Source: Haematococcus lacustris (taxonomy: Eukaryota; Chlorophyta; Chlorophyceae; Chlamydomonadales; Haematococcaceae). Taken from it: DNA of 64,000 nucleotides. Positions 15,685-63,425 of this stretch are shown here, piece after piece (the first letter of the stretch is position 1; each line of letters opens with the position of its first letter). Where the stretch lies: NCBI GenBank assembly GCA_030144725.1, contig JASKMD010000025.1, positions 620,001-684,000 of the forward strand, in the 5' to 3' direction. The notes beneath the pieces were generated by a model. It ran no database searches, was not told the DNA's origin, and worked only from the letters and a program-made list of their open reading frames with translations. Made by a program: the position numbers and the translations under genes.

Positions 15685-15854
15685 TCATACATCAATCACG
15701 GTGCTGCACCAAGTAATACGGATGACAGAATAGATGCTCGTAATGCTGTTCCTGTTCTGTGGTTGCTGGGGCTGCGTCACTGTCATGTTGCTGCTGCTGC
15801 CACAGACACACCATCAGCAACTAGTGATAGAATGCCTTAGATACCTAGCGGTGT

Positions 15855-19244: not shown

Positions 19245-19289
19245 GGCTTTGCCTGGTGGGAACAAGGTGCTGACCTGCCAGGACCGCCA

Positions 19290-41581: not shown

Positions 41582-41926
41582 CACTCCTACAATTTAGTCC
41601 CTGCGTTTGTCCCTGCGTTCTACCGACCTTGTCCGATCGGGCTGAAATTTTGATAGATGACAGTTTTCAGAAAATAAAACATATTTTTCAAGAAACATAT
41701 TTGGAAAATCCCAAAAGCTGTTGCGCTGTGGCCCGCAACCTATCCCTGCACTTATCCCTGCACCCACGCCCCAGGGCCACAGCGCAGCCGCCTTTGATTT
41801 TTTCAAAATATTTTTTCTGAAAAATATGTTTTATTTTCTGCAAACTACCATCATTTAAAATTTCAGCCCGATCGGACAAGGTCGGTAGAACGCAGGGACA
41901 AACGCAGGGACTAAGTTGTAGGAGTG
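41582..41926. mobile_element. 345-bp CACTA-type MITE
   Basis: Ends CACTCCTACAATTTAG ... CTAAGTTGTAGGAGTG, flanked by a 2-bp duplication AT (41580-41581 and 41927-41928). The first ~65 bp of each end are inverted copies differing at one or two bases, and looser complementarity continues inward so the whole element can fold back. The termini and subterminal TCCCTGCG words match the 20-kb element at 42965-62929, so it is a probable non-autonomous derivative mobilised by the same transposase. Confidence 0.9.
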
Positions 41927-42575: not shown

Positions 42576-42964
42576 CACTCACGATAAACAAGGACCGGTC
42601 GCGATTGGACCGACCATAGCTCATTGGAAAGAGGAGTAGAAGGCCGTTCGAACGGTACAAGTCTTACGCTAATCCGCGCAACCGTTGCGACGTAATTTGG
42701 CCGCGATTTTCTTCGCTTTCGTATCTGTACAGATGTCAGTCGTTCTTCATCTGCACAGCTGCCGCTAGTCGACATCTGTACAGATGCTGGCGATGTCGAC
42801 ATCTGTGCAGCTGCGGGAAGTCAACATCTGCACAGATGTCGTATACCGAAACCAACATCTGTGCATCTGCTGACGACGACATCTGCACAGATGTCGACTA
42901 TTGCATTCAATGCTTGGCTGTGCAGATGTTGACACCGACATCTGTGCAGCTGCTGACAACGACA
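42576..42964. repeat. Satellite leader and dyad repeat, interrupted by the 20-kb transposon
   Basis: Near-identical to 1004-1350: the GATAAACAAGGACCGGTCGC leader followed by CATCTGCACAGATG dyads. It stops at GACAACGACA, where the transposon begins. The dyad continues at 62930 as CATCTGCACAGATG, so removing the element and one CA restores GACAACGACATCTGCACAG. Confidence 0.88.
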
Positions 42965-43134
42965 CACTCCTACAATTTAGGCCCTGCGTTTCTCCCTGCG
43001 CTTTGGCCGACCTTGTCTAAATGGGCTGAAACTCAGCCAGTTGGTAGCTTATGATGTAAGGAATCCATCCCAAAAAGAATCAGGTCAAAAAAGTCAAAGG
43101 CTGAGGCTGGGCGGCCCGTGGCGTTTACGCAGGG
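42965..43134 (+). repeat. Left terminal inverted repeat
   Basis: Starts CACTCCTACAATTTAG and includes GACCTTGTC and a shared GGCTGAGGCTGGGCGGCCCG block. It pairs with 62760-62929 reversed, with roughly six substitutions or small indels over ~170 bp. Confidence 0.9.
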
Positions 43135-43920
43135 ACGGATGCAGGGATGGAGGGGGGGGCGCAGGGACAAACGCAGGGATGGAAGGGGGGGTGCAGGGAC
43201 GAGTGCAGGGACGACTTGGGGGCGCAGGGACGAACGCAGGGATGGAGGGGGGGGTGCAGGGACGAACGCAGGGACGAGTGCAGGGACGAGTGCAGGGATG
43301 ACGGGCGCAGGGACGAGTGCAGGGACGAGTGCAGGGACGAGCGCAGGGATTATGGGCGCAGGGATGGACGCAGGGATGAGCGCAGGGACGAGCGCAGGGA
43401 TGAGCGCAGGGATGAGCGCAGGGATGACGGGCGCAGGGACGAGTGCAGGGATGAGCGCAGGGACGAGCGCAGGGATTATGGGCGCAGGGACGAGTGCAGG
43501 GATGAGCGCAGGGACGAGTGCAGGGATGAATGCAGGGATGAGTGCAGGGATGACGAGCGCAGGGACGAGTGCAGGGATGAACGCAGGGACGAGCGCAGGG
43601 ATTATGGGCGCAGGGATGAGCGCAGGGATAAGCGCAGGGACGAGCGCAGGGATGGCGGGCGCAGGGACGAGTGCAGGGATGAGCGCAGGGACGAGCGCAG
43701 GGATGAACGCAGGGACGAGTGCAGGGATGGCGGGCGCAGGGACGAGTGCAGGGCTGAGCGCAGGGACGAGTGCAGGGACGAGCGCAGGGATGATGGGCGC
43801 AGGGACGAGTGCAGGGACGAGCGTAGGGACGAGTGCAGGGATGACGGGCGCAGGGACTAGCGCAGGGACGAGTGCAGGGACGAGTGTAGGGACAAGTGCA
43901 GGGACGAGCGCAGGGACCTT
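43135..43920. repeat. Left subterminal array (GCAGGGACGAGT units)
   Basis: About sixty-five 12-bp units GCAGGGA(C/T)GAG(T/C), with GGGC-type breaks where the period slips. Orientation is inverted relative to 61735-62760. In plant CACTA elements such arrays bind the element's accessory protein to bring the ends together. Confidence 0.92.
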
Positions 43921-44016
43921 GCATGACATGTCACCTTTGTGTATCCCTAACACTTGCATACTCTGTGTAACCCAACCATTTCAACCATGGTCGTGAAGTA
44001 TCACATTTAGTCCATG

Positions 44017-47000
44017 TCAATCCTCTCGATCTCTCTTACTGCGTCCACCCCTGCCACCACCCCTGCCACCACCCCTGCCACCACCCCTGCTACCACCCCT
44101 GCTACCATCACCGACTGGCTTTCGCTGGGTCTTGCCACCCTTTCCAGGCTCAGCCTCCTGCTCTTCTGGCTTTGCTGGTGGCCAGCTTACGCCTGCTGCC
44201 TCGTACCACTGCTGCTCCAACTGCTTCAGACCTGCCTCTGAGAAGTCTGGGACTTTAAGCCAATCCTCCACCCACATGGCGTCCTCTTCTTTCCGAGCTG
44301 GGGGCTTGTATGGGACCTTAGGCACGTGCTTGCCACCTGCTGCTTCCCCCTGCCATGCCGGCACCTTGGGGGTGCTGCCGGTCCTGGGCTCCGTGGTGGG
44401 CTGGCACAGGCTGTCAAACAGGCGGCCAAACTCAGCTATGTAGCAGGTGGTGTCCGACACAAAGCCAGTGGAGGCGTAGAAGTGCACCCGCACTGAGCCT
44501 GTCCCCTCCCTGCCCTCATCACCAGCATGGATAGTGTACCCACGCATCCCCAGCACCTGACCTGGCTCCAACGTCACCCTCACCACCTCCTGGGCTGTCA
44601 TCTTCTGCTGCAGGTACTCCTGAAGAGCAGCCTGGCACTCATGGCTCTTGCCCGGACCGTTCCAGAAATGCTCCACTATCTGGACCCACTTGTGGCTGCG
44701 GGGGATGAGGAGGATGCTGACCCGCTGCATGGCCATGATGAGCACCATGCCATCACGCCCTGGAATGAAACGCCACTGGATGGCGGGCGGCTTCTGCTTA
44801 AGGGATGGCTGCCGGCTGGGGGATTGCTGCCGGCTTGGGGATTGCTGCCGCCTGGGGGATGGCTTCCGCTTGGGGGATGGCTGGCTGGGACCTGCACCTG
44901 TACCTGCTGCCTGGCTGCTGCATGCTGCTGAGGAGGGGGCTTCTGGCTGGGGAGCGTCTGTCGAGGGGGGTTGGGGTGGGAACAGAGCTGCTTGTCTTGC
45001 CTCCTCCTCATCTGACCACGAAGGCCGCACATCCACATGCAGTGCCTGAGCTGGCACCAAGCCGGTAGCCCCTGTGGGTTTGCCGTTTTCCAGCATCTTG
45101 TACGGGTCGTTGCACAGGATGGTGCCACCACGGAGGGGGGAGTTGACCAGCTGGTTGGCCCTGGCCTGGAGGCGCTTCAAGCACGCCTGAGCCCACACCT
45201 TGGCAGCCAGGTGGCGTGCCTTGATGGTGGCATCCAGATTCTGGAACGTCTGCACCGCTTCCTCGGTCAGCATCCCCGCCATGGACACCTCGTCAGCCAG
45301 GCTGCCATCATGCTGAGGGCTGGTGAAGAGCAGCTGTTTGCGCTGCCCTGTCCCAAACTCAGTCACCACTTCCTGCAAGCAAGCAACACACCATAAGCAT
45401 GCGCCTTGTTGAGATGGTGTATGTGCGCATGCCAATGTTGTGACATGTAAGTATTGCGGACTAAGATATAGTCTTGTAAGGCTAGAGTTAGGGATAGGGA
45501 TGGGGACAGGGACAGGGACAGGGATAGGGACAGGGGTAGGGTTAGGGATAGGGTTAGGGCTAGGGCTAGGGCTAGGGCTAGGGTTAGGGTTAGGGTTAGG
45601 GTTAGGGTTAGGGTTAGGGTTAGGGTTAGGGTTAGGGTTAGGGTTAGGGTTAGGGTTAGGGTTAGGGTTAGGGTTAGGGTTAGGGTTAAACTGAAGGGCT
45701 CAACTCTGCACCTGAGCTCAACCGGACAGGTTAGCTATCATTTGAAGCAGTTGTTCTCACCTCCGTTCCCTGCACCTCTCCCGGTACAACCTTCAGCGTC
45801 CCATCGGTGTTGACAGCGCTCTCCTTGAAGATGATGCGAGCGTAGTGCATGGCCAGCGTCAACAGGGCCCAGAGCTCCTTGGCGATTGGCATGATGTCTT
45901 TTCCAACCACCGTCACTGCATAGCCCTCCTCCTCGACCTCAGCCTTGAACTCCTCCTCCTCTCCAAGCTGGAACTCCCTGCAGATAGCGTTCCTGAAGCG
46001 AGGCCCCATCCATGACAGGGTGCCCGTCTTGCCCTTCTTCTGAGGTGGCTCTGCACCCTGCATAAAATTCACAAGGCCCATGATGGTGCCGTTAGATCTA
46101 CACAACTCGTATGTAGAGTGTGCAAGGCATAGGTGACTTGCAGGCATGTAAGTCATGGAAGTTTAAACATGATGCCTGTTATGCAATGCAAGTAAATGAC
46201 AAGTGACATGCTGCTTTGTCTCCACTGTCAAACCTTGTCAGCCGCCGCCGCCTTGTCTTGCTGCTTGTGCATCTTCAGGTCAAACAGCCCCTCCATCATG
46301 GCCTCCATCCTCTCCACCGTGGCCTGCAATGCGTCCAGCTTTTGCAGCTTGGTCTGCATGGCGTCCAGCTTTTGCAGCTTGGTCTGCATGGCGTCCAGCT
46401 GATGATGCTTGGGGAGCATAGCCTCCAGCTTGGCGATACGCTCCTCAAGGGCCTGAATTCACGACATTGGTTACTGTCATTGTCAATGCTCTTCACATCA
46501 TCAACATGTATGATGCCCCATATGCTGTGATGACTCACAGCTTGGCTTGTCGAGTCTCTCTCGGCTGCCGTCCTCTTCTTCTCTCCTCCCACTTGGCTGG
46601 TTCCCTACAATCACACATTCAATGCATGTTCTGGGTCTATGTCCTCACAACTATCTAGATGCACCACACATCATTAACGTCATTATGTGATGTACAACAC
46701 ATATGGACATCAAGCAATTTCGCCCAATTACATGCACAGTCATGCGTATTAGCTCATCAGGCTTAATGAGTAGGTGCCCATTATCCATGGTTATGCAGAT
46801 ATGAGCGGTTTTCCATACACACACTTAGACCAACCTCTGCATCACTGTCACCGATAGTCAGGTCCAAGGGTCCTTGCTTCGATGCTGGCGCGCTCAGCTG
46901 TGCCTCCTCGCCTCTCTTAGCCACCCGGCCTGCCTGCAGTTATACAAAAATGCAGGCCATGGTTTAGTGTCATGCGCTCACCTGCGTGTGGGGGTGGAGG

Positions 47001-50000
47001 CACGGTGCTTGAAGCCTTATGCATGCATGATGCGCACGATGAGCATAGTGTGCATGCTGCATGTGGTAATCAAAGGTCAATTGACATAACTCGATCCTCA
47101 TCCTCCCATCGTCTGTACGCATATCTGTTGGACAACACCTTGTTCTCTTCGGCAGCGGCGTCCTCCCACTCGTCACTAATGTTCACCTACGATCATCATT
47201 CACAAATGATGTATCCTGCATGTGCATGTTGCGTTGCAATCATGAAATTGCTAGTTATGGGACCTATACTCACAATGCTTGGCCACCCCTCACAACGTTG
47301 CACCGCGTCCTTCCAACACATGCGCCTCCCAATCATGCCCTTCTCAGTGTTGTTGTCAAAGTCAATCTCGGTAATGAAGTGACTGCAGCGCATGCCTTAG
47401 GTTAGGTCACCTTACAAGCCATGTGATGTATATGCCAGGCAGTGCCATTGCATGGTATATTCTTTCACACCTTGTAAGCGCGGACTCACCTTGTGCGCCG
47501 CTCGGTTATGTAGTCAATGTGCACCAGCATGCGGTCGCCACAACTCCAGCAATCTCCCTGTGGTGGGCAAGCACCTGTCTGCGACCGCCACAGCCCATCC
47601 CTAACATTCTTCTTGAGGAAAGCCTCGAGCTTCCTCCACAGGGGAAAGGGGATGTTTCCGGGCTGCATGTATGCAGAAGAACGTGGCACTGATCACATTC
47701 ATAACACTGCAAAACCCCTTCATGTTCAACTCACCGTGATGGGGTCATAGTACACGACCTTCCGCATATCCACGTAGACAGCTGCCACTGTCCAATGGTT
47801 GTCTGTAGGGTTGAAGGGGATGAGGATCAAGCTTGCATCTCTTAGCTGGGACATGCCCAACTTCTTCAAAATCTTGCTCCTCTCCTTGTAGTGGTCCATC
47901 GCCCTGTCCGCCGCCTCCTCATTGTCCCGGATTCCCTTTCCCACATGGCTCTGGAGGATCAAGAACTTTCGTTCTTCCTTGTTGAAGCGAGTAGCCTGTA
48001 ATGACATACCACCATGCATGGTACCTTTCATCCTCTGTTCAATCATCGTGCACACACTCTTCTTCCATGCTACTAACATGTCAACCTGTGGTGTTTACTC
48101 CACTCACTTGGATCAACTCCATGGCCACGTCTAGCGCATTGCCATTGATACTCTGCGGCTCATATGTGGTTGGGTCAAAGAACCTTGAGTCATCGACATA
48201 GTATGGGGGAACGCCCTGCAATAGCATCCACACAGTCAGAACTAATACAAGTGTATGTGTCCGTTTGATTGCTGTCAATCTCAAATCTATGCTCCCATGC
48301 TCCCGTGCTCCTACCTTCACCACCTTTCTTGCGCCTGCGCCAGGCGTTGCACCGCCCTTGGGGGCACCTGCAACCATACCAATTCCCACCACATGAACAG
48401 CAAGCGTGAGAGACCCCGCTTGCCTAATCCATCATACTACTAAAACCAACATGTAGTGACTTTCCTAGACTATACCTGGGTTGGGCTGAAGGGCGGCCTT
48501 GGTAAGGGTTGGTTGGGCTGGGGGGCAGGCGGTGGCAGGGGGAGTGACGGATGATGAGGGTGGGCGGTTGGATGAGGTCTTGGCCAGGGAGAGGGCTGGT
48601 GAAGGCACAGTGGAAGGGGTTGGGGCAGGGGCTGGGGTAGCAGCAGAGGTGGGCAGGCCACGTGAAGTCGTAGCTGCTGGGGCCATGCGAGGGGTGGGGG
48701 AGCGAGTGGGCGCCACCGCCTTGGATTGGGTAGGGGCTGGTGGGGCTGGGGGGCAAGTGGGGGCAAGGGGGGTCACGCGTGGTGTGGCTGGGCGGTGGGA
48801 TGAGGTCTTAGGCAGGGTAAGGGTTGGAGGAGGGGCTTTGGGAGGGGCTGGGGCGAGGGATGGGGCAGGAGCTGAGGCAGGCTGGACAGGGGCAGGCGTA
48901 GCTGATGGGGCCATGCGAGGGGTGAGGGTGGGAGTGGGCGCCTTCGCCTTAGATGCAGCAGCCGGCGACCCTGTGAACACGATGCAAGCACAGTTCGTGT
49001 GATGCATGTTGGGTGGCATGCTATTATGAGATGTGCATGCAGCACACAATTACATATACCTAGCAAAGCGTGCTTGTACTTTGCTGGAGAGGTCTCCTCT
49101 GCCTGCTGCGCATCAACCTCAGTCACTGGAGGTGGGAGGGTGACCTGCATTACACCAGTAGTGCAATTGTTGATGACTAGATCTGGCCAAGGTTGACTTC
49201 ATGCCCTGTCAACTCACCTCTGTGTTTGACACAGTGGGTGTCTGGGATGGGAGTGGGGGGGTGCGTGTCTGCTGCAAAGACGCCTGCACATATAGGGGTA
49301 CACAATGAGTCATCACATTCACGCCAAGTTTGCACCCCTCACCCCCCTGCACACCTGCATGAGTAACATGACTCACCTTGGGTGACCGTTGCTTCTTGAC
49401 CTTGAGGGTCTTTCCACTCAGCAAGCTGACCATCACACACTTCACTGCCTTCACCGTCTTCTTCAGCTCATCTGTGAACTGGATGGGGGCCTCTGCACTC
49501 ACAATCACCATCATGATTGTCATGCTGTGAGCCTCCTAGGGTACTCATGCGTGCCTAGCTAGCACCTACTTGACGTCTCATACACATGGTACAGCTCTGC
49601 TAGGCATTCCATGCCTTGTGGCACTGCACCACCTCCCTCTTTCCCCACGGCTGACAGGCCGGGGAAGTTGTTGGTGGCCACCACGTAGGAAGCGACCCAC
49701 GTGTCCTGATCCTCCTTGCTCATGCTGTTGTACTGGATGCGTGCCCTATCAACCATCCTGTGCATGCACACATCCAGCATGTATGCATGCATGTGGCTGA
49801 CCCTATCAGACTGTTGCATTGTCTTGAAGCTGGCACACTCACTTGTGCACTGCTGCTGTCATCGCTGCCGCTGTTGGAGGGTTGGCGCTGTTGGCCAGGT
49901 TTATGCCAGTTATCATGGCGCCTGTGATAAGCTTGAATCTGGGCTGGTCTAAGGTGGCATCCTGCATAGCACATTGTAAGTGGACGTTGTTAGCAACCTA

Positions 50001-50164
50001 GACACCAGTGCTTCACAATCGATTGGCTTTACCCTGAAATCGATCAACACTGGGAGGATTGCCGCCACATATGTGGACAACTGCACAGTTTCCCCGGAGG
50101 TAGATGTGCCATTCATATCGCCCGTTGTGAACACAGCCGGAAATGGGGCGCTTGCAGACGACAT
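44017..50164 (-). CDS. Ulp1-like cysteine protease gene with coiled coil and beta-helix-like C-terminus, ~18 exons
   Basis: Starts at ATG 50164. Exons with plausible GT-AG ends: 50164-50033, 49961-49843, ~49758-49572, ~49523-49379, ~49287-49219, ~49143-49062, ~48972-48476, ~48370-48318, ~48226-48115, ~47997-47736, ~47667-47490, ~47397-47277, ~47189-47142, ~46932-46833, ~46608-46550, ~46451-46233, 46057-45761, 45372-44017. The 48972-48476 exon is Pro/Ala-rich. Ulp1/SENP-like (C48) signatures: His in FNPTDNHWTVAAVYVD, Asp in VVYYDP, then Gln and Cys in PPQGDCWSCGDRM. A heptad coiled coil follows (LDAMQTKLQKLDAMQTK). The last exon has LEPGQVLGMRGYTIHAG...RVHFY, similar to the end of 2OG-dioxygenase/cupin folds but without an obvious HxD, then a Gly/Arg tail. 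Likely cleaves SUMO or ubiquitin-like conjugates, or the element's own proteins. Could be two genes. Confidence 0.58.
45540..45688. repeat. Interstitial TTAGGG telomere-like array inside an intron
   Basis: About eighteen perfect TTAGGG units (45577-45688) are preceded by degenerate GGGCTA and GGGACA hexamers (45483-45576). The array lies between two exons of the minus-strand protease gene, where the transcript would read CCCTAA. Confidence 0.95.
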
Positions 50165-50478
50165 TGATTGACGATGATAGAACTGGTCTGCGATTAGTGG
50201 TGTGCGGTGCAGCTGTGTAACCTGAACGCAGACTTGTCTTCGGCGATGCTCATGCAAGTCGTGTTCAAAGTAAAGTTATTGCTTGCACGTTCCCTTCGTT
50301 ACCGTAGACTTGTTACCTGGATTTCACCTTTAGCTAACCGTGTAGCCCTGCCTTTTTTGAGCATTGTGGGCGTCAATATTGTGCTACATGACTTGCAACA
50401 TGGAAACCACGCATGTGCAAGCGCCCGCCAGCGATCCTATGGTCGGAGGCGGTACACACCTCAGCACGGCGTCTGACA
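50165..50478. promoter_or_regulatory. Divergent promoter region between cargo genes
   Basis: The only gap between the minus-strand protease gene (ATG at 50164) and the plus-strand paralogue (ATG at 50479) is ~314 bp, so it must hold both start regions. No clear TATA box was identified. Confidence 0.45.
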
Positions 50479-51615
50479 ATGCAGCGCTCAGTTATGGGGC
50501 AAAACGGGGTCGAGCCTGTCGTTGTAACAAGCGGCGGTGATTTTGTACGGCCCGGTCAGGGTAGCGAGTCCAGCCCAATCACCGAAGAGTCCCGTGAGAC
50601 GTGCTTGGCGACTTGTGACTTCCTGGCCCTCAGCATCGACTCAGAAACTATCTACACGCATCTATCACCTCGCCAGTTGGCGGCTCTGTATGGACGTCGG
50701 CAGCGTCTATCGCTAATGCTGACCCTGGAGCAGCGACTTGGGCCACACGCCATGAGGTGCAGAGTGGAGGGGGTGATTGGGTTCCTGGGCTACTGTGAGG
50801 CTGTTCACAGCGTGGAGATCAGACTCGTCATGGACGAGTACACGGATGAGGAGCCCACCTATGAGCAGCTGCCAGTGGGGGCCTGGTTGGCGGAGAGGCT
50901 AATATCCAACTTCCCCAACTGCCAGGTGTTGGGTATCAAGCCTTTCATAATGCTGGACTCAGAGCTGCTGGAACTCCTCAGCCACCAGCTGGTTGTGGGG
51001 CGGATCAAGCATGTGGACATCCAAACAGCCATCCTGACAGACAGGGCAAGTGATGTTCCTTATGAGTGGGTGGAGCCAGCTTTGGGGCTGACAACCTTGA
51101 TAGCCACCTACCTGGGCCCCCTCCCCATCTCCCTTCGTGACCGCACCTGCAACCTTGTGGAGCTGAGTGTCACTGAGATGAACCTAACAGACGTGGGCAA
51201 CCTACCACAGTCCATCTCAACCCTACTGATATCTGACCTCACCGTCGTCCTGCCAGAGCCGGATATGGCGGCCTTGAACAGAGGTGTGGCAGACCTCAGC
51301 TCAGGCCGGTTCGAGCGTCAGTATATTGGGATGCTGGCCATGGCATTCACAAGGAATGCAGGATGTGCACAAGTAGCAGCCCTGAAGCCCCTGGTGGGCC
51401 GGTTTAGGGAGGCCCTGGTGGAGGTGGGGGAGCCAGGCATTGATGGCAAGCAGCTGATACAGCCGCTTGTGGTTGATGCTGTGATTCCAATGTTGAAAGG
51501 GTGTGCAGGGGTCGAGTTCAGGAATGCCATGTGCACGCTGTATTCATGGCACGAGTGGGCAATCAAGAATGCCATGGCGCCGGGTGCGTCGTTCAGCATA
51601 CGTTATGCGCACTGA
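50479..51615 (+). CDS. Cargo protein 1 of unknown function (paralogue pair)
   Basis: An intronless ORF. The ATG at 50479 (MQRSVMG) is preferred over 50413 because the similarity to the next gene begins near it. The ~378-residue protein has Leu-rich segments with alternating hydrophobic residues (LISNFPNCQVLGI, IKHVDIQTAI, LVELSVTEMNLTDVGNL, ISTLLISDLTVVLPEPD) that suggest an irregular leucine-rich-repeat-like solenoid. No catalytic motif, signal peptide or membrane segment is evident. Its neighbour at 51883 is a clear paralogue with the same blocks (PTYEQLPVGAWLAERL, ALKPLVGRF). Lack of introns sets both apart from the other genes of the element and suggests capture or retroduplication. Function unknown. 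Confidence 0.68.
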   Translation: MQRSVMGQNGVEPVVVTSGGDFVRPGQGSESSPITEESRETCLATCDFLALSIDSETIYTHLSPRQLAALYGRRQRLSLMLTLEQRLGPHAMRCRVEGVIGFLGYCEAVHSVEIRLVMDEYTDEEPTYEQLPVGAWLAERLISNFPNCQVLGIKPFIMLDSELLELLSHQLVVGRIKHVDIQTAILTDRASDVPYEWVEPALGLTTLIATYLGPLPISLRDRTCNLVELSVTEMNLTDVGNLPQSISTLLISDLTVVLPEPDMAALNRGVADLSSGRFERQYIGMLAMAFTRNAGCAQVAALKPLVGRFREALVEVGEPGIDGKQLIQPLVVDAVIPMLKGCAGVEFRNAMCTLYSWHEWAIKNAMAPGASFSIRYAH

Positions 51616-51882
51616 CATGCTTAGTCCTGGGTCACAGTGACATGGAGTGGGCTTGGATGGACAGCATGAACTCCAAGGATGAGTGGTCATGGATGTAAAC
51701 ATTGAAAGATGTTATATCTTGAGCACCACTGACTCCAAGGTTCCCTACAACGATTGCATGCCCTAGCTCAGCGACGGAGCCATGATATGACGTTCATTGG
51801 GCGTTCATAGCATGCCCATCATATCCATTGTGTGTGCAAGTGCATGGTGCAAGCCTTGCGGCCAGTCTGCAGTACAAGCACG

Positions 51883-53022
51883 ATGGCCCTCACGTCGCGG
51901 CGCCCAAACCCGTCGGACTGGGTGACTATAGAAAGCAACGGCGACTTCTATTGGCTCCATGACGATGATGAGAGCACTTTGATCAGTATAGAGTGTCGCG
52001 AGTCCAGCCTCGCGACTTGCGAGTGTATAGTGATCAACATCGACTCAGAGTCCATCACCAGCCACCTATCTCCTCGCATCCTTGCGGCGCTTCGCGACCG
52101 TCGGCATCCACTGGCACTCCAGCTGCTCGTGACGACCCTGCTTGGGCCACACACCATGAGGTACAGACTGGAAGGGGTGATTGGTCTCCTTGGCCGCTGT
52201 GAGGCTGTTCACAGCGTGGAGATCAAATTCCTCGACAAGCGGCCGGCCATTGAGGAGAACCCAACCTATGAGCAGCTGCCAGTGGGGGCCTGGTTGGCGG
52301 AGAGGTTGATGGCCAACTTCTCCAAAAGCCTCTCACTACGTCTCCAGGATTCTCAATGCCAGTATGAACAGCTGGCGGAGCTCCTCAGCCACAGCCACTT
52401 TCTGGGAAGCCTACAGAACCTCGACATCCAGGAGCTACACATCCAGGATGGCAGTGTGGATCACTATGAATGGGTGGAGGGTTACTTGGGGCTCACAGTC
52501 TTGTCAACGGTGTACCTGGGTCCTGTGCCCACTCCCTTACAGCCATCACTGCCTCACAGCAAACTCATGAAGCTCAGCCTGACAGAAATGCACATAACAG
52601 CCGCCAGCCTGCTGCCTCAAACCATCCAGGTTCTCGACATCACGTACCTCCATGTCACCCTGCCAGAGCCTGATCAGCAGGCCATGACCAGCGGGGTGGC
52701 GGCCCTCAGCTCAGGGCGCTTCAAGACGCAAGACATTGGATTTGTGGGCCTTACAATCACCAGCCTTGAAGGAGGAGGGCATGCTTCGTTGGCGGCTCTG
52801 AAGCCACTGGTGGGCCGGTTTAAGAAGGCTGAGGTGAAGTTGGGGGAGATAGCACCAGATGGCGAGTATGAGATTGAATCAGTCATCCATAATATGGTGA
52901 CACTATTGCAGGGGTGTACAGGGGTTGTATTCATGGGCTATAAAAAGCCGCTGTCTAGCTGGTGCATGTATCGATTGAAGGGTAGCATGGCTGAGGGCGC
53001 TACTGTGGAGGTACAGGAGTGA
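51883..53022 (+). CDS. Cargo protein 2 of unknown function (paralogue pair)
   Basis: An intronless ORF of ~379 residues from ATG 51883 (MALTSRRPNPS); an in-frame ATG at 51832 is possible. It aligns along its length with the upstream gene, sharing SHLSP, LGPHTMRYRLEGVIGLLG-like, CEAVHSVEIK, PTYEQLPVGAWLAERL, LTEMHIT, VTLPEPD and AALKPLVGRFKK blocks. The Leu-rich pattern (FLGSLQNLDIQELHIQD) again suggests an LRR-like fold. The gap to gene 1 is 267 bp, so this is a local tandem duplication. The two have diverged substantially yet both frames are intact, which argues they are under selection. No known family recognised. Confidence 0.68.
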   Translation: MALTSRRPNPSDWVTIESNGDFYWLHDDDESTLISIECRESSLATCECIVINIDSESITSHLSPRILAALRDRRHPLALQLLVTTLLGPHTMRYRLEGVIGLLGRCEAVHSVEIKFLDKRPAIEENPTYEQLPVGAWLAERLMANFSKSLSLRLQDSQCQYEQLAELLSHSHFLGSLQNLDIQELHIQDGSVDHYEWVEGYLGLTVLSTVYLGPVPTPLQPSLPHSKLMKLSLTEMHITAASLLPQTIQVLDITYLHVTLPEPDQQAMTSGVAALSSGRFKTQDIGFVGLTITSLEGGGHASLAALKPLVGRFKKAEVKLGEIAPDGEYEIESVIHNMVTLLQGCTGVVFMGYKKPLSSWCMYRLKGSMAEGATVEVQE

Positions 53023-53365
53023 CATTGTAAAACATTGTTTGCGCTGTATGGAGCATTGGACCGAGCTGAACCTAAACAGGTCTTCATATGCTGCAACCCA
53101 TCACTTCTAACCCAAAGAAGGCCAATGCTGACATCTGTGAGGCGACACAAGTCACCTTACAAAAAGACACGACCCTAACACTGTCACATGAGGCACATGC
53201 AAGACAAAAGCACATGTCACATAGGAGAATTGTGACTGTTGTTAGGTTAGAAGCTTACCCCCCTGCTGCTTGGCCTGAGATTGGTGCAGGAGCTCAGTCA
53301 GTTCGTCTTGAGGGTCACTGCTGCTTGATTCCTCTCCTTCCCCCCCTCCCTCTGAGGCCACCTTG

Positions 53366-56300
53366 TCAACCTCCCCCTCCCCCCCCTCCCTCTCCCCCTC
53401 CCCCTCCCCCCCCCTCCTCGACCTCCTTCAGCCCCATCTGCTGGACCCCCTCCCCCTCACCAGCCCCCTCCACCCAGTCCTCCCCCCCCCCCTCTGCCCC
53501 GAATTGCTGGGTGTCTCCTGCTTGGTGGTCTGGGAGTACTCCAAGGTCCGGCTGCTGCCCCACGCTAGTCTTGGCCTGCAGGTCCTTGTGGACACCCTCG
53601 GCCACCTCAGATAGGAAGGCCTACAACATACATGGCACATATTTAAGTCATAGCATGGCAGGTAGACCCCACACGCATATGACAAGCTCACTGACCTGGA
53701 ACCTGTGGAGCTTGGTGGCCAGTACGCCCTCGATGGAGCTCAAGACCATGGCCTCCTACACATGACATCAGGCCTTCATCATACCATGCAAGACATCATA
53801 CCATCATACACACTCAGGACACACTCAAGACACACGCAAGACACACTCAATACACACTCACCTGTACACCATAAGCATCCACGAAACCTGGTGCCAGGCT
53901 GCTGAGCATTGACTGGAGCTGCTCCACCATGACGGGCGGGACCGTCAGACTGGGCGCCGCAGCCTCTGCGCTGAGCTGGTCAGCAGCCTCACCTGGATGG
54001 CAGCCAACTCAATCGTGTCATGTCAGCACTGGATGTAAACACTGTTCAAACTATAGGACACATACACTGCAACCATATGTCAAGGGTGATGGACACTTAT
54101 GATTACAACAGATAGGCCATGCATAACATTGAAGCCAATACGCAAGGTTACTCACTGGCTTGCCAGAAGTCCCGGCCACGTTTATACTCTAGTCCCCACT
54201 CCACCGGCACAAAGTCGATGCCCTTGGTCCAGCGGAGGACGACATATTTCTTGTAGGCATCGGTCTCTTTGCCAATCTGGCTGCTGCACAGCTTGTTGGG
54301 GTTCTTATTGCGCCATTCACTGACAGTGCGACGCTTGTTGCGAAGAGCACTGCATAATAGCATGACAAATACACAGGTGCAAAAGCACATGCATTACCAT
54401 GTGAGACATGCTAGATAGGACACGACATGGTATACACACTATAGGACATGACATGGTATGATGCTAGATGGGACAAGACATGGTATTCACTCACTGTTGC
54501 ATGACTTTATCCACGTTAGTGTATGTCACACACGGGGGCAGTTTTCCTTCAAACTCGACTTCAAGGGCCATCACAACAGCCCCAAGCGCCGCAAACTCCG
54601 CTGCAGGCCACTTTGAAATATCTTCTTTCATGCTCTTTTTGCAGAGCATCCCATGAGGCTCATCGCCAATAGGATACTCCTGCATGTGCACAGCTTTCAA
54701 GTCGTTCAACATGTTGCAAGGCAATCCATGTGCAATGGTCGTAGCTACACTTTGATCTTACAGGCAAGTAAGTTCTCATACCGAACTTGACCCAGGCTTT
54801 CCCTGACTCACTCATCACACACTTAAACGCCTGCAAACCACATGCACATATAATTGTGACATTCATCACGGGGCAGAATTGCATGCATGTGTCAGCTAAC
54901 CCACACACACACACACCTTTTTCCCGTCCTCATCACCACCGAATGAATTGTGTGAGGAGTCCTGCAGAGCACAGTCTGGGCAGTTTTAGCAACTCATGAA
55001 TATCATTATCCATTTTGTTGCATGACGACATGAGGCATCAGTCCACCTTGCTGGCATTCACCTCCTTGGGCTGCTTCTTCTTCTCTTGCCCTTTCCCCTT
55101 CTCCTTGCCCTCCTCCTTCTCCTTCTCCAGCCCCTCCTCCTCGCCCTCCTCCTGGGCGTCCTCCGTGCCCTGAACCTGGCCCTTCTTTAGGCTCTTCTTC
55201 TGTCCCTGGTCCTGCCTCTTGCTGGTGCCTTTACTCTTGGGCGCTTTGTCACCACCTCGACGGCCCTGTCAAGGCATAGGTGATGAGCGGATTACTCAGA
55301 CACAACATGCAGCTCAACAACATGCAGCGCCTCAATTACAACATACTCAGACACAACATGCAGCACCTCAACAGATGGTTATCTTACCCTCTTCTTGGCA
55401 AAAATCTCCTCCTCATCCCCCTCCTCACCCTCCTCCACCCTTGTCTGCACATGCTTCCTGGGGCTGGCAGCAACGAGGCCACGAGCATGACCGCGCAACT
55501 GCATGTTTAGAACAAGATACCATGCGCATCATGCATGGCCCCATGGTAACCCAAGTATCTCTTTCACTTACAGTTATCTTTGCGGGTCGCTTGCCTAGTG
55601 AGCCAGCACCAGCTCCTGCCGCAGCCTGCAAGTCAGCAGGGCATGCTCAATCACTACCATTCGACTAAAGCAACAATGGCTTCCTGGTTGTGCGTAGAGC
55701 CTCCATGCATGACCTACCCGTTTAGCACGGGGCTCGTCATCCTCTTCCTCATCAGACACCTCAGATTGCCCCTCCTCCATGCCTTCATCTACACTATCCA
55801 GCAGGCTGTCCTCATGGCTTGTACGTGCCGGTGGGGTCACGATCTGAACATGGCAGCGCATGGAATACTACCTAGCTCAACACCCGCATGGCAACCTGGC
55901 ATCATGTCAGTGGCATACCTTGCTTGCAGGCTTAGGGGCCTTCCCAGCTGACGATCCAGCAGATGCACCAATGCCCCTCACGACCTGCCCTCCATATCTA
56001 TGCATACTCGGTGAGACTGGCAGCAAACCCAGGCTTGGTGGCTGGGGTGGAGAAGGTGCCTGTAAGTATAGCAGACACAGTGATGTCACCAAGATGGAGG
56101 GTCACGTTGTACCACATTCCAACGCACCTTTGTTTGGGCATACAGAAGGACATCGACATAACCCTTCTCTGGCTTGTAGCTGCCACACTTCATGGCAGCA
56201 AATGCATCGAACCAAGCCTTGTCCTGCTTCTTGTTTTGCAAGAGACGTACAAGGGCCTGGACATTCCCCGGCTCCATCATGCCGGTATAGGTAACTTGTT

Positions 56301-56439
56301 CATCGCTGTAGACTTTCACTTTGCTGAGGTGGAGTGACATCAGGTGCTGCGACAATGCATCCGCTGAAGGATAATCGGTGACATCGAAGCTCGCAATGAC
56401 TCCATTGGACTCATCAAGCACGGTTACGTTGACAGCCAT
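53366..56439 (-). CDS. Unknown multi-exon gene with charged segments
   Basis: Starts at ATG 56439 (MAVNVTVLDES); an upstream in-frame Met at 56556 is less likely. Probable exons: 56439-56128, ~56059-55921, ~55847-55720, ~55626-55575, ~55500-55390, ~55267-55045, ~54962-54917, ~54832-54780, ~54717-54497, ~54350-54158, ~53990-53860, ~53755-53700, and ~53620 to a stop near 53366. The first exon encodes a compact, ordinary-composition domain (LSKVKVYSDEQVTYTGMM). Exons three and six are acidic and Lys/Glu-rich. Exons nine and ten give WPAAEFAALGAVVMALEVEF and RRTVSEWRNKNPNKLC. The last exon ends in poly-Gly/Glu. No family recognised. By position in a CACTA element it could be the repeat-binding accessory protein, but that is a guess. 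Confidence 0.45.
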
Positions 56440-57273
56440 ACTTCGCTGTTGTTTCTCCCTCCGTTCTGTTCTCTTCAACATCCGCCGAAATGTTAAGCAA
56501 GAAATGTGAGATGGTCGAAGAGCCACCGGCATCCAGGGATACGGAATAGCCTTCAACCTGTTATGACAATGGATCTACAGGCTGGTGATTAGACGGCTGT
56601 GGATGATGATTGGAGTCGGTGCATACAAGCGGCCCGCTTCTACAGCAGCTCATGACTTCGGCCGCACTAGAGATAGTGCTATTGGTACGATCGCTGGCAT
56701 CGATGGCCATCAGCAGGCGGCGGCGACAGGAGGGACACAGTGCAAGCGATCACCAGCGCCACCGCCACAGCGATTGGCACCGGTACGGCTTGAGGGAGTA
56801 CGCTCAGATCTTACTAGCATGTATTGCCAAGCAAGTATTACTAGCTACTATTACAGGGAGACGGACGTAATCCACGGCTCTTCATGGCTCAGTACATGAG
56901 AAGGATGGGGGCAACAGACAGGGTGAGGGAGACGGCATGGAGCTGTCAAGGACAGTTTCACTAACGTACCATTGTCGTTGTTTGTCATGTAGAGAGTCGA
57001 GGCTCACAAAGGGCACAGTGAGGCCATAAACAATGAGACCAGCAGCTTGCCTGGCCCTTCTACACCCAAGCAACTACCGCCAGCTCAGGTTAGGCGTGTC
57101 TCACTGATGATTCATGCTCGGTCGCTTATAGTTATGTTACTGTGTGTCATTAACGAATGACTTTCCATGTCTCTAATCTTGATCCCAGGCGTCCAACGGA
57201 GGAACAGCATCGCGGTGAGTGACAGGGAGGGTAGGCGGCACAAGAGGGGGTGGGTCCTTGCCGGGAGTAGACG
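56440..57273. promoter_or_regulatory. Divergent region upstream of the transposase; 5' exon unresolved
   Basis: Separates the minus-strand unknown gene from the plus-strand transposase. Frames at 56585-56899 or 56610-56870 could be a first transposase exon, but no splice pair could be fixed. From 57230 the plus strand becomes a GGAGGG-rich stretch. Confidence 0.35.
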
Positions 57274-60200
57274 GTGGAGGGGGAGGGAGGCGGTGGAGGG
57301 GGGGGCGATGGTGGAGGGGGAGGCGGGGGTGGAGGGGGGGTTGGGGGTGGGGAGGGAGGGGGGGATGTCAGAGCAGCAGCACTAGGTGGCGGCCCAGTCT
57401 TTCGCCGCAACAACAAGAACAGCAAGGACAAGGATGCACTTCTCAGCAACGAGCTTGTGTATCCTGACAGGCCAGATGTCAGAATGCAGGACCTTGTCCG
57501 GCACTTGTGTGAGTACTACATCAAGGCCAAGCCGTCTGACCAGCAGATGAAGGACGTGCTGGAGCTGTTGGACAACTGCATGGGCAAGGGCAAGACCTTG
57601 CTCCCTTCAACAACGCACCGGTTCTACGGCTTGATTGATGCGTTGGGCAGTGAGGAGGAACGTGTGCACGTCTGCAACGGCAAGACCTGTCCAGGACATG
57701 CCTATCCGCACCTGCCTCGGTGAGTCACATGTACATAAGCCACCACATACTCCACCACATACTCCACCACATACTCCACCACCTCCAATGCAACGTCCAC
57801 TTGAGTTGTTTGATTGCCACAGGAACCAATGGACACATCACTTGAAGGACGTATGCCCTCATCCACAGTGTGGTGAAACCCGTTTTGTGACAGGTAACAG
57901 CACATCCACATGCATCCATTGAGCTTAATACCACCACCTCCCAGCATCACCTCCAATTCTCCCATACTCCCCTATAGACAATGATGGTGTCTTTGTGACG
58001 CATGCCATTATGTGGTGCTGTACTATGCCATGACAGAGAGTGGCTCCATTGAGGCACGTAGCAGCATCTACCTTCACGGCCTTGAGGACACCCTGAACAT
58101 CCTCATGAACAACCCCCAAGTCAAGAAGTGGCTCCTGGAGCGCCCAGTGAATTCAGAACCAGGCTCCTTTGCTGCAAGTAAGAGAGTGTGCATGACAGGT
58201 GCATATTGGAGGACAACAACAATAAATCCATAGCCCATCAACGTGTGGTTGATTTGGTTGCATCACACGTAGGCCCTGCCGCTGCCCACATCCGGGAGCA
58301 TGTTACGCCTGATGTGTATGATAACCCGTACGCTGTGAGGGTCAGCTTGGGGCTGGACTGGGTGAGCATCAACAAGAAATCAGTGGGAGTGATTGTCATG
58401 CAGGTGAGCAAGCAACCTAGTATCCTTGACACCACGCATTGACTTGCCCTACATACACAACCATCAGTGCAACACCCAGCCAGTCCATGCAGGTTGACAC
58501 CATGCATAGCTTTGCACTCATGCCCGCCTTGTGTTTTGTTGTCTGTGAGCTCCAGTTGGTGGACGTCCCAGATCATGTGCGGGGCAAGGACGACACCTGG
58601 GCCATCCTGGGCGTCATCATCGACAACAAGACTTCAGCTGACTCGCATGTCACCGGCTACATGAAGCCCATCTTCGAGGCTTTCCAGGGAGCGCTGGGAC
58701 CAGACAGCTCCAAGCACATCCACCTGCGCAGTGAGACCCTTGGCGACCGCCCCACTGAGGGCCCCCGGCTGTACCCTATCGTGATCAGTCTGGTGGCAGA
58801 CACTCCAGCCAGGCAAGTTGTTACAACCAGAGGTGCACTATGTGGCTGGCCTCACAACGTCATCACCAACATGTGGCACCCTGTGGTTGCAGGGCTGCTT
58901 GGTCTGGTGGCATGCAAGCGGGCGCCAACATGAACTGCATGTGGTGCTGGCTCAGTACCCCAAAGCATGGCAAGGAAGGAGTCCATCCCATGGGCTACGT
59001 CGAGCCTGTGGACGCACCTACAATCCCCCCAGCAGTCAGACCTCCACCGCCTCTGGCTGCCGGTGAGGCAGCTCCAGCCAAGGTGCATATGATGGATGCG
59101 TGCATGCGCCTGACGGCTGAGGAGTTCAAGCTGCGGGCAGACCTGGTAAAGGCTGCTCTAGAGCATGGAGGTCAGGAGCATGTGGGCCTGAAGCCTGGCC
59201 AGCATGGCTGTAACCGCCCTGCTCTCATCCTGGAGTTCCTTCGGTACGTGGAGGGCACGTGGGTCCATGTCGTGCCCATAGCCCACGGCCTGCTTTTTGG
59301 GCTGGTTAAAAACCACCTGCTGTGGCTGCTTTCTACCAAGGAGAACAGCCCTTTTGACACCCATGAACGCAAGCTCATTGAGGAGCGCTTCAAGCACATC
59401 CGCGTGCCTGTGGACTACGGACGCCAGCCCCATCACAGCGTCAAATGCAGGTAAGATGACAAATCAACAGGGGCAATGGGAGCAACACTAGCATAACTGG
59501 GACTAGGGTAGCACAGGTATGTAAGAGAAGGAGTTGCTATGCAGATGTTTGGAAGCTGTGACCAATTGAGACTGAAAGTAGGGCACATACACACGAGATG
59601 AAGATGTTGTGTTTGTATTGCAGTGCGTGGATCATGGACGACTACATGAACTTCCTCAAGCACGAGTGGGAGTACGTGTTATTGGACATCATGAAGCGCA
59701 ACACAACCAGCCGGCGAATTCACTTTGAGCTGTGGGAGCACCTGGTCCAAGCCGTGCTGCACTATCTGACGCCAGGTGTGTAGGTTATAGATACTGCTCA
59801 GATATTGTTATTAGGACCACCAGCATGATCACCATCATGGAGTGCTCTGATAACACATTCATATGCTCCTTGTGCCAGGTGCTGACACACCTGCAAAAGT
59901 GGAGGCCAACATCCGAAAGGGCTTCGACAACCTGCTCGACTACGCTAAGAAGCTGGAGAAGCACAAGGTGGAGCTGCATGTCCCGGCCCACATGTTCTCT
60001 CCCAACCTCCATATGTGTGTATGCCGGTGAGTGAGCAGTAGGACGTTGATGTCAGCTACTCCACCATCTTCGAGACCAATAGCCCCTCCTAGTTTGTCAC
60101 CATGAATAAGACAGCCTATAACACCCCCCCAAAGGTAATTATGATGCTCACTTACCATGTACCTATAATGCTTACCAAATACCTGTAATGTACCTATAAT

Positions 60201-61318
60201 AATACCTAATGCAGTACATGGCTGGCCGTGATGTACGCAGGCTGCTGTATCAAGAGCTGCAACGTGGCCGCAGCTTTCGTGATGCTGAGTTTTGGTTGGA
60301 GCGCGCCATGCAGTACATGAAGCGCTGGGGAGGCAAGCATGCACCCGGTTCTACCATTGGCCTCTCAGCCTGCCTGCGTGAGAAGGTGTACCGCCAAGCT
60401 CAGCGTTTCCTGCACAAGATCCGGGCGCTGCAGGGTGGGGAGGATGAGGAGGGTGGGCGCCAATCGCAGCAGGGAGCAGAGGGTGAGCCGGTGGGGTCAC
60501 AGCGGGGGGGTGCAGGGGATGGGGCAAGGGAACAGGTGGAGCGCCCTATCGAGTGGGGCTGGTCAGGTCCGGGCCCCCACCACAGCGGAGGACACACAGC
60601 CAGAAGCAGAGAGGAACTGCCAATTGGTTGGCGCAGGTTACCGTCAGTGCCCAGTCACGGGTGGGGAGCAGTGGGTGCGCCAGGCGGTCTGCACTATGGT
60701 GGGGGAGCTCAATGCTGGGTTGAATGGCGAGGGCAGCGGCTGGTGTGAGCAGGATGTGCTCGACCTGTTCTCTACTCCCCCTGCCACCAGTGGTGCTCCT
60801 GCCCAGCCCCCTAACGTGCCGGGGCGGGTATGGTACTTCACCCGTGCAGAGTGCACACAGCAGCTGATGTTCAGCGTGGCGTACAAGCGTGCAGAAAAGC
60901 GCAACAACAGCTGGGCCATGGATAAGTACTACTACAGAGCCAGCTTGTCCACTGTGAACGAGTATGCGGCCCACATCCAGTTCTGGGTGCGACTAGAGCA
61001 TCCAATCATCACAGGCCGCTTCCTACGAGTGGCCATCGCAAGGCTGTTCCCCGTCTACCCTGTGGGTGGCCTGCCCAACTTGTTGCATGGCATGGGCCCT
61101 GAACCAGAGCCGACAGCAGCATCAGCCGCAGCACGCACACCCGGGCGCAAGAGACCAGCCCCACAGGACACAGCGGCCAAACGCCTGGCAACAGGGCCAA
61201 AGCCGGCAGCAGCAGCAGCAGCGGCTGCAGCGACATCAGCAGCAGGAGCAGCGGCAACAGAAGCAACAGCAGGAGGTGCAGGGACAGCAGCAGCAGAGGC
61301 AACAGCAGTAGTGACCGA

Positions 61319-61349
<31 letters not shown>

Positions 61350-61656
61350 CCACCAGACGGTGGTGGTCACTCTGTTCAACCACCCCACAATGGTGGGACC
61401 ATCAACCGACAAGCGCCGCTCAACCCGTGTGGCCAAGGGGCCAGCCACCGTCCCACAGGAGCAGCCAACCCAGGCAACCTTACCCTACCATCGGCGCGCC
61501 AAGTTCAGGACAAAGGAGGCAGGTGCTGGTCCTGCTGAGTGGTTTGCTGTGAATGGGGAGCAGCTGCACACTCTGTTCGTGTCCTTCTTCCCCACAGGCG
61601 AGGGCCATGGGGACATGTACTTTGTTCCATACAACAGCCTCAGCAAGCAGCACTAG
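57274..61656 (+). CDS. CACTA/Plavaka-like transposase of the 20-kb element, at least eleven exons
   Basis: Homologous throughout to the gene at 4735-8659. Phase-consistent exons: (5' end unresolved)-57719, 57823-57893, 58037-58177, 58234-58403, 58550-58812, 58893-59450, 59624-59775, 59879-60018, 60215-60482, then 60637 onward to the stop at 61654-61656. The intron after 58812 uses a GC-AG pair (GCAAGT donor). Landmarks: CPHPQCGETRF, GLDWVSINKKSVGVIV, LVADTPAR, MNCMWC, HGLLFGLVKNHLLWL, HIQFWVRLEHP and the final FVPYNSLS. The early part is poly-Gly. Between ~61300 and 61414 the frame changes at an Ala-coding CAG run; this is either a short intron not resolved here or slippage that would disable the gene. 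It is the obvious candidate for moving this element and the 345-bp MITE. Confidence 0.72.
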
Positions 61657-61734
61657 ACACTGTCCCTGTCGTTCAGGTCACAACATAATGATGAGGATGT
61701 GCTGATTGTAATCAGGTGGCGCCAGTCATCCATG

Positions 61735-62759
61735 CATTCATCCCTGCACTCGTCCCTGCACTCGTCCCTGCATTCAGTCCCTGCGCCCCTGCACATCCAT
61801 CCCTGCACTCGTCCCTGCACCCCCACTTCCGTCCCTGCAATCATCCCTGCACCCCCAGGTCATCCCTGCACGCGTCCCTGCACTCATCCCTGCGCCCGAA
61901 ATCCCTGCACTCGTCCCTGCACTCGCCCCTGCGTCCGTCCCTGCATCCGTCCCTGCACTCGTCCCTGCATCTCGTCCCTGCGCTCGTCCCTGCACTCGTC
62001 CCTGCGCCCGTCGTCCCTGCGCCCGAATCCCTGCGCCCGTAATCCCTGCGCTCGTCCCTGCGCCTCATCCCTGCACTCGTCCCTGCGCCCGTCATCCCTG
62101 CACTCGTCCCTGCGCTCGTCCCTGCACTCGTCCCTGCGCCCTTAAATCCCTGCACTCGTCCCTGCGCCCGTCATCCCTGCACTCGTCCCTGCGCTTCAAT
62201 CCCTGCACTCGTCCCTGCGTTCATCCCTGCACTCGTCCCTGCGCCAGTCATCCCTGCACTCGTCCCTGCGCCATGGTCCCTGCGCTCGTCCCTGCGCTCG
62301 TCCCTGCACTCGTCCCTGCGCCAGTAATCCCTGCGCTCGTCCCTGCGTGTCCGCGTCATCCCTGCACTCGTCCCTGCGCCCAGAATCCCTGCGCTCGTCC
62401 CTGCGCTCGTCCCTGCACTCGTCCCTGCGCCCATAATCCCTGCGCTCGTCCCTGCGCTCATCCCTGCGCTCGTCCCTGCGCTCATCCCTGCACTCGCCCC
62501 TGCGCCCATAATCCCTGCGCTCGTCCCTGCGCTCATCCCTGCACTCGTCCCTGCGCCCGTCATCCCTGCATCCGTCCCTGCACTCGTCCCTGCGTTCGTC
62601 CCTGCGCCCCCGGTCCATCCCTGCGTTCGTCCCTGCACCCCCCCCTGCATCCCTGCGTTCGTCCCTGCGCCCCCCAGTCCATCCCTGCGTCTGTCCCTGC
62701 ACCCCCCCTTCCATCCCTGCGTTTGTCCCTGCGCCCCCCCCTCCATCCCTGCATCCGTC
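61735..62759. repeat. Right subterminal array (CACTCGTCCCTGCG units)
   Basis: About eighty 12-bp units of (C/T)TC(G/A)TCCCTGC, the inverted counterpart of 43135-43920 and slightly longer. It begins ~80 bp after the transposase stop. Confidence 0.92.
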
Positions 62760-62929
62760 CCTGCGTAAACGCCACGGGCCGCCCAGCCTCAGCCTTTGAT
62801 TTTTTTGGCCTGATTCTTTTTGGGATGGATTCCTTACATCACAAGCTACCAACTGGCCGAAGTTTCAGCCCATTTGGACAAGGTCGGCCAAAGCGCAGGG
62901 AGAAACGCAGGCCCTAAATTGTAGGAGTG
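62760..62929 (-). repeat. Right terminal inverted repeat
   Basis: Ends CTAAATTGTAGGAGTG. It is the reverse complement of 42965-43134 with few differences, followed directly by CATCTGCACAGATG satellite. Confidence 0.9.
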
Positions 62930-63425
62930 CATCTGCACAGATGTCGACTATTACATTCGCGGCTTGGCTGTGCAGATGTCGACTATTTCATCGACTATTA
63001 CATCCGCAAAGCACATGCATTGACACCCAAACATCCAGCAACACCTCGCTACACCCCCGCAAAACACATGTATTGACGACCCAACACCCCGCAACACCTC
63101 GATACACCCCCGCAAAACACATGCATTGACGCTCAAACACCCCGCAACACCTCGATACACCCCCGCAAAACACATGCATTGACACTCAAACATTCCGCAA
63201 CACCTCGCTACGGGACTTGCAAGCACATGTCTCGATGCACCATCACTCCACAACACCAGAATATGGAAATGCTAAGCACATGCATTGATGCACCCAATGA
63301 CCGCAACACCCCCCTACGATGTGACAAGGTAGCAACGACACAACACAACAACAAGGTGACACCACACACCATCACCATCACCATCACCATCACCATCACC
63401 ACGCTCAGGTTAAACATGCATCGAC
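62930..63425. repeat. Satellite resumed after the 20-kb transposon
   Basis: Dyad repeat, then ~3-4 units of the CCGCAAAACACATG tandem repeat, then the GGGACTTGCAAGCACATG segment and CACCAT hexamers, in the same order as 1400-2012. Confidence 0.88.

Follow-up and report, generated by a model that had tools for sequence, protein, structure and literature searches.

A 20-kb CACTA-like transposon of Haematococcus lacustris carrying predicted Ulp1 protease, dioxygenase and leucine-rich-repeat-like genes

Positions 42965–62929 of a 64,000-nucleotide stretch of Haematococcus lacustris DNA (the window, C136:620001-684000 in the 307.9-Mb, 597-contig genome that was searched) very probably represent one insertion of a multi-copy CACTA-like transposon; this judgement leaves aside the anti-silencing step discussed in the last section. 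That the element is of the cut-and-paste kind is close to certain, as its ends, subterminal arrays and 2-bp duplications fit movement by a transposase that is under purifying selection. The initial annotation had described the region as a large mobile cargo-bearing unit. The exact ends, a collinear copy elsewhere in the genome and the copies' own duplications uphold that description.

Ends, target sites and genomic copies

The left (42965–43140, plus strand) and right (62753–62929, minus strand) terminal inverted repeats were 96% identical across 177 aligned columns, and the left repeat recurred throughout the genome. The first 16 bp were identical at both ends, with CACTCCTACAATTTAG at 42965 and its reverse complement at 62914–62929. 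The subterminal arrays had a period of 12 bp and ran in opposite orientation at the two ends. The left array (43128–43930, plus strand), with GCAGGGACGAGT as its commonest unit, contained 58 copies of GCAGGGA and the inverted right array (61730–62764, minus strand) contained 74; the 17.8-kb interior held 2 and 3 copies on the two strands, five in total. The bases next to the two ends (42963–42964 on the left, 62930–62931 on the right) both read CA, which gives a target site duplication of 2 bp and not 3. Matching inverted termini, inverted arrays and a 2-bp CA duplication had all been proposed at the outset, and each was borne out.

When the two flanks were joined at a single CA, the resulting sequence aligned across the junction to positions 1226–1305 without gaps (80 bp, 90%) and, over a longer span, to 1146–1387 (245 columns, 86.5%, 4 gap openings). 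The similarity extended from 1002 to 2107, taking in the repeat at 1004–1480. The empty-site support claimed in the initial annotation comes from this sequence, which is a relative of the flanking repeat at another place in the window and not the allelic empty site. A 345-bp miniature inverted-repeat transposable element (MITE; 41582–41926) sat 1.0 kb outside the left end, with 67-bp ends that were 84–85% like those of the element and an AT/AT duplication of its own. It was probably mobilised by the transposase of the 20-kb element.

Other copies with the same ends, a check suggested in the initial annotation, were sought using the left 176 bp as a genome query, and 40 matches were scored among 1,176 candidates. 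Exact 2-bp duplications were found in 14 of the 16 end pairs checked. Before the C276 and C542 copies were re-paired, 9 of 12 pairs matched; their outer ends gave mismatching duplications and the inner ends were used instead, and the pairs of the window element, the MITE and the second C136 copy were added to the set. The duplicated sequence varied among pairs (CA, AT, TC, CT, TA, GT and GG), and a 3-bp duplication was seen in none of the 15 pairs in which the third base was compared. The two non-matching pairs, a second C136 copy flanked by AT/CA and a C127 copy flanked by TA/TT, weigh against the present reading of the element.

Copies were compared with the window using matches longer than 120 bp, and another filter excluded matches shorter than 300 bp or below 86% identity. 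The copy at C64:12348924-12367256 (18,333 bp, CT/CT) was collinear with the window element at ~86–97% over most of its length and was mainly without 50951–52723, so that it carries one leucine-rich-repeat (LRR)-like gene versus two in the window. It was bordered by telomere-like sequence (gggttaccct / ctaaccctaa). From C542:4667770 onward, a further collinear copy was broken by three large insertions, one of which was another family member, 3,053 bp long and flanked by a separate CA/CA; the copy's own right end was not present in the 2 kb examined beyond. The single LRR-like gene of the C64 and C542 copies (versus 50951–52763 in the window) resembled a fusion of the pair and may derive from unequal exchange or represent an ancestral single copy. 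An additional end pair of 19,920 bp (C136:689317-709236) lay 6.4 kb from the window element, and its ends and marker positions showed matches to the dioxygenase, LRR and transposase queries spaced much as in the window element.

Shorter members of the family were also identified. Internal deletion derivatives were located at C276:156194-165316, C175:18450972-18459226 and C1:4616925-4624283, and the copies on C74, C100, C40, C476 and C127 had no match above 120 bp to the coding interior. Because the collinear copy and the 19.9-kb pair with gene markers exist, the short copies are understood as ordinary deletion derivatives and do not speak for two unrelated MITEs. The initial annotation had allowed that copies without the internal genes, or ends that never co-occur at 20-kb spacing, would speak against it: the former exist but are outweighed by the collinear copy with its gene regions, and the latter is contradicted by the 18.3-kb and 19.9-kb pairs.

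The spacing of the genes was analysed with 40 main rows each for the transposase, dioxygenase and LRR queries (28, 1 and 1 secondary pieces, respectively, were excluded). The dioxygenase search gave 215 candidates, of which 40 loci were scored, and 21 of these 40 had a divergently oriented transposase locus at most 30 kb away. Six of the 21 were at the full-length spacing of 12–15.5 kb, and two, both at C276, had their transposase loci in common. Two dioxygenase–transposase pairs showed another orientation, one being the junction between the neighbouring C136 elements. The entire 981-bp transposase query was covered at ≥94% by 20 of the 40 scored transposase loci. The family has the usual structure of autonomous and non-autonomous members, with a full-length form of ~18–20 kb.

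Transposase, superfamily membership and companion genes

Coding regions were predicted with a GT-AG splice model whose codon scores were derived from 11 open stretches within this very element, a partly circular procedure. The model returned five coding units, the tandem pair being counted as two, in agreement with the five genes of the initial annotation. The transposase gene (57189–61656, plus strand; predicted start position uncertain) is under purifying selection, judging from its ratio of nonsynonymous to synonymous substitution (Ka/Ks). The motif codons were located at 58356 (D1), 58799 (D2), 58936 and 58945 (C2C), 60001 (PNLHMCVC) and 60287 (E.W.ER), a D, D, C(2)C, E series that may resemble that of EnSpm. 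The predictor placed the start at 55709 and drew exons opposite the acidic gene, which was not believed. A highly diverged relative of the transposase was observed at 4801–8188 (plus strand, 27–37% identity), keeping GVDW, IADTPA, MCYNC and ELWIER, with IADTPA and MCYNC again in different frames. Its 3' end, repeated at 14968–15213, lies in direct repeats at 7811–9750 and 14836–16774. The later motif of the EnSpm transposase is PNxHxxxH, where both transposases here read PNLHxxxC, i.e. H(3)C.

Several observations weigh against a straightforward assignment of this gene. D2 and C2C did not share a reading frame, the splice model included neither in its exons, and an intron between them had to be assumed; the frame change was present in 5/5 aligned copies, which suggests such an intron. 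The tnp2-like transposase that the initial annotation listed among CACTA features was not recovered by family model: up to E=10, no transposase family in Pfam matched the hand-joined and splice-model translations or P0020-P0022.

The strict CACTA terminus was absent, the sequence being CACTCC at both ends here and in 12 further pairs examined, and neither a 3-bp duplication nor a match to the Tnp2 family model was obtained; the inverted arrays of short subterminal repeats expected of CACTA/EnSpm elements were present. The CMC/CMCT group is described as having CA..TG termini, 2–5-bp duplications and a transposase with D, D, C(2)C, H(3-4)H, E (PMC12730594). The element had CA..TG termini (CAC...GTG) and a 2-bp duplication within this range. 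The evidence falls short of placing the element in CACTA proper, and the best reading is a CACTA-like (CMC-type) cut-and-paste transposon. Of the CACTA type first proposed, a CACTA-like unit with exact ends is upheld; a true CACTA terminus and the 3-bp duplication typical of plant elements are not.

LRR-like gene 1 (50479–51615, plus strand) and LRR-like gene 2 (51883–53022, plus strand) were 47% identical paralogues. The AlphaFold model of gene 1 had a predicted local distance difference test score (pLDDT) of 69, and its ten best Foldseek matches in the Protein Data Bank (PDB) included NLRP3, NLRC4, COI1 and NLRP7. The NLRP3 match (E 3.6e-4) was the only one below 0.001, the best TM-score was low (0.42), and Pfam LRR models gave no match. 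On the structure model, the tandem pair of unknown genes in the initial annotation looks like leucine-rich-repeat proteins. All database proteins listed were from Haematococcus lacustris (16 for LRR-like gene 1, 3 for the dioxygenase and 3 for the transposase). Among them, P0001 and P0007 were single proteins of ~378 aa, and P0002 and P0022 contained two copies fused. The predictor's joining of the two LRR genes into one model was not believed.

An acidic/lysine-rich protein was predicted on the minus strand (53862–56439), with its start at 56439 and an uncertain 3' end of the model. It matched no Pfam family and is a candidate for TnpA. An extension of this gene by the predictor, antisense into LRR gene 2, was not believed.

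The Ulp1 and dioxygenase region, selection and neighbouring elements

A Ulp1–coiled coil–dioxygenase gene was predicted on the minus strand (44017–49967) as a 15-exon splice model that may correspond to two genes. The model started at 49967 (with an alternative ATG at 50164) and contained 14 in-phase GT-AG introns, and its frame of 1,089 codons is free of stops except at the end. The Ulp1 (Peptidase_C48) domain exons (47274–48215, minus strand) matched PF02902 at E 8.2e-8 alone, above the cut-off, and at 4.6e-7 within the joined protein. The catalytic His (NHWT), Asp (YYDP, 47741–47752) and Cys (WSCGD, 47534–47548) were located and coincided, in an alignment that is weak (E 0.1), with the corresponding residues of a Ulp1-like SUMO protease of solved structure. 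With the His-Asp-Cys triad in place, the domain match assigns the region to Peptidase_C48. The Ulp1-like protease of the initial annotation was correctly recognised; the dioxygenase downstream in the same splice model had been missed.

The predicted dioxygenase part (44017–46057, minus strand) contained HVD within 45028–45045 and IHAGDE at 44515–44532. It matched PhyH (phytanoyl-CoA dioxygenase) at E 7e-4, just below the cut-off, which its relative P0006 passed at E 2.4e-5. In the alignment, HxD was present in 4/4 rows covering the site and HAG in 4/5, and no Pfam match to the TET/JBP family was found up to E=10. A telomere-like (TTAGGG)17 array was observed at 45584–45685, within the predicted dioxygenase intron 45373–45760. 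Against the assignment stand the lack of the second His in P0005, and an AlphaFold model that was unusable (pLDDT 38), on which the attempt to distinguish TET/JBP from PhyH by structure failed. Nothing significant was obtained against the sequences of solved structures, the best being an oxidoreductase at E 0.72; DhiD matched the TVHxG stretch of P0006 at E 1.2, and the others were low-complexity.

The Ulp1 protease and the 2-oxoglutarate- and Fe(II)-dependent (2OG-Fe(II)) dioxygenase may be encoded as one protein, the splice model joining Ulp1, coiled coil and dioxygenase through fourteen in-phase introns with no stop between them. The alternative of two separate adjoining genes has a probability that falls a little short of even, and several points stand against a fusion. 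It is the prediction of a splice model whose training drew in part on these segments, and it was seen in 0/13 of the database proteins sequence-checked (of 22 matched). The three introns linking Ulp1 to the coiled coil and dioxygenase had weak donors (GTGTTG, GTTGGT and GTTTGA), which makes two genes quite possible; 8/11 of the remaining introns began with GTGAG. The model also listed an exon of zero length between those for Ulp1 and those for the coiled coil, where one GT-AG intron suffices.

Ka/Ks was calculated by pooling comparisons with up to 5 copies; as the window copy enters into every comparison, they are not independent. The modelled transposase core gave 0.24 and had no stop or frame-breaking indel in 5 copies. 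Values below one were also obtained for the coiled coil (0.31), the dioxygenase (0.50), Ulp1 (0.52), the LRR-like genes (0.44 and 0.33) and the acidic gene (0.50). Two stretches depart from this picture of constraint, namely the N-terminal exons 49967–49054 (1.57) and the C-terminal stretch of the transposase at 61195–61656 (0.87), and both are unconstrained or poorly modelled. The dioxygenase region of the C64 copy carried two frame-breaking indels, and the C276_961k copy had a stop within the Ulp1 exons. The single stop counted in the dioxygenase rows would be the normal one, because a count that skips the terminal codon gave 0 in every copy except C1, where 1 was left.

Transposons can acquire host genes by chance, and gene-fragment capture is frequent in CACTA elements and Mutator-like elements (MULEs) (PMC13317346). 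We consider it rather unlikely that the cargo genes here are such passengers, obtained by transduplication and not serving the element. Many copies without cargo keep intact ends and duplications, as a passenger origin would allow, and the stops and frame-breaking indels in some cargo copies point the same way. The Ka/Ks values below 1 for the dioxygenase, coiled coil, Ulp1 and LRR pair argue against it, shared as the window copy is, and gene order and orientation recur at several loci, more diverged copies included. In P0005 and P0006, two divergent models from the database, LRR-like sequence is likewise found together with dioxygenase-like sequence. That two independent MITEs of one family merely flank unrelated host DNA can be dismissed as next to impossible: a 345-bp MITE with the same ends does lie 1.0 kb away, and such ends are common on small elements, but a single CA duplication borders the element on both sides, its flanks can be rejoined into a related repeat, the collinear 18.3-kb copy is independent and has its own CT/CT, and the gene spacings recur at other loci.

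CpG transitions between copies occurred at 1.8–2.5 times the non-CpG rate in 7/7 copies, and the observed/expected CpG ratio was 0.46 in the interior versus 0.59 to the left of the element. The pattern is weakly consistent with past methylation of the copies; the controls for comparison are few, three small pairs with ratios of 1.40, 0.54 and 0.00.

Other elements were observed in and around the family. A 14.5-kb copy with family ends and TA/TA (C64:12253067-12267612) was considered as a carrier of different cargo, but proved to be a small element into which an open reading frame (ORF) of long interspersed nuclear element (LINE) type is nested. The nested LINE has one 3,491-codon frame with Josephin, endonuclease, reverse transcriptase and RNase H domains, and sub-threshold PHD and PCIF1_WW matches. 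In the window, a Josephin (deubiquitinase) domain occurs in an open frame of 1,610 codons (9849–14678, minus strand) between the direct repeats noted above; this frame shares 47% identity, across 569 residues, with the N-terminal part of that 3,491-codon ORF. Ty3/Gypsy-type ORFs with zinc knuckle, reverse transcriptase, integrase and chromodomain occupy 17916–23192 (plus strand). Two LINE-type ORF groups at 27510–31631 (plus strand) and 33962–39200 (minus strand) contain RNase H, and the second also reverse transcriptase; both lie within a 3.4-kb inverted repeat of 85% identity around a tandem array.

Related systems and a proposed role for the cargo

The element resembles the plant CACTA/EnSpm elements soybean Tgmt* (20.5 kb) and maize Spm in its CAC...GTG ends and subterminal arrays, its ~20-kb size, its internally deleted derivatives and its transposase with a candidate second protein (PMC2613891). 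It differs from them in having CACTC and not CACTA, a 2-bp and not a 3-bp duplication, a transposase without a Pfam match, and extra LRR-like, Ulp1 and dioxygenase genes (PMC2613891). The grapevine Cactavine families are likewise CACTA-type elements with a Ulp1 protease; there, Tnp2 and ULP1 domains occur together, and dioxygenase and LRR genes are not mentioned in the text consulted (PMC2528002).

Fungal TET+ EnSpm/Plavaka elements are CMC-type transposons with a 2OG-Fe(II) dioxygenase, and PlavakaA duplications are 2 bp and those of PlavakaB 2 or 3 bp (PMC12730594). The fungal dioxygenases belong to TET/JBP, whereas the one described here has no TET/JBP match and PhyH as its nearest model; Ulp1 has no mention in the main text of that source, whose author describes TET/JBP function in these elements as experimentally unvalidated (PMC12730594). 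Ulp1 is joined to a transposon anti-silencing protein in the KIU-carrying Vandal MULEs of Arabidopsis, as it may be joined to a dioxygenase here; those elements belong to the Mutator superfamily and the partner is VANC, not a dioxygenase, and the role of Ulp1 in Ulp1-VANC proteins is given as unknown (PMC13317346). No publication joining CACTA, transposon, dioxygenase and Ulp1, and no published description of such a Haematococcus element, was found in the literature searched, with most subscription papers and Repbase outside its scope. The words CACTA and EnSpm are absent from the main text of two Haematococcus genome papers.

These comparisons suggest how the element might work. By analogy, the transposase would cut at the CACTCC termini and the acidic/lysine-rich protein would recognise the 12-bp arrays, the role of TNPA in Spm; we lean towards this division of labour with modest confidence. 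TNPA binds the Spm repeats (PMC2613891), and TnpA has been linked with demethylation (PMC10398659). The Ulp1 protease would strip SUMO from silencing factors and the dioxygenase would oxidise a methylated substrate, so that the two, possibly as one protein, would counter host silencing. This step is a tentative suggestion, possible but doubtful, to which three separate precedents point: TET/JBP in fungi, Ulp1 in grapevine and Ulp1-VANC. The LRR-like pair could act as protein-binding partners. The fullest version of the proposal, which we regard as decidedly unlikely, is that an algal CACTA-like element encodes a single SUMO protease–2OG-Fe(II) dioxygenase protein, a two-headed anti-silencing factor that would have evolved independently of Ulp1-VANC and fungal TET, with the LRR-like proteins directing or regulating it.

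Escape from silencing by transposons is known in few cases: Spm has TNPA, Vandal has VANC, and the TET enzymes of fungal transposons are inferred to act in this way. The algal element unites two predicted enzyme types from separate cases, perhaps in one protein. The element moves in an ordinary way; what makes it interesting is the predicted pair of protease and dioxygenase, most of all should the two form one protein. As copies with and without the cargo genes coexist, the anti-silencing idea is testable within one genome. The family further provides a ready set for repeat annotation of an industrial alga.

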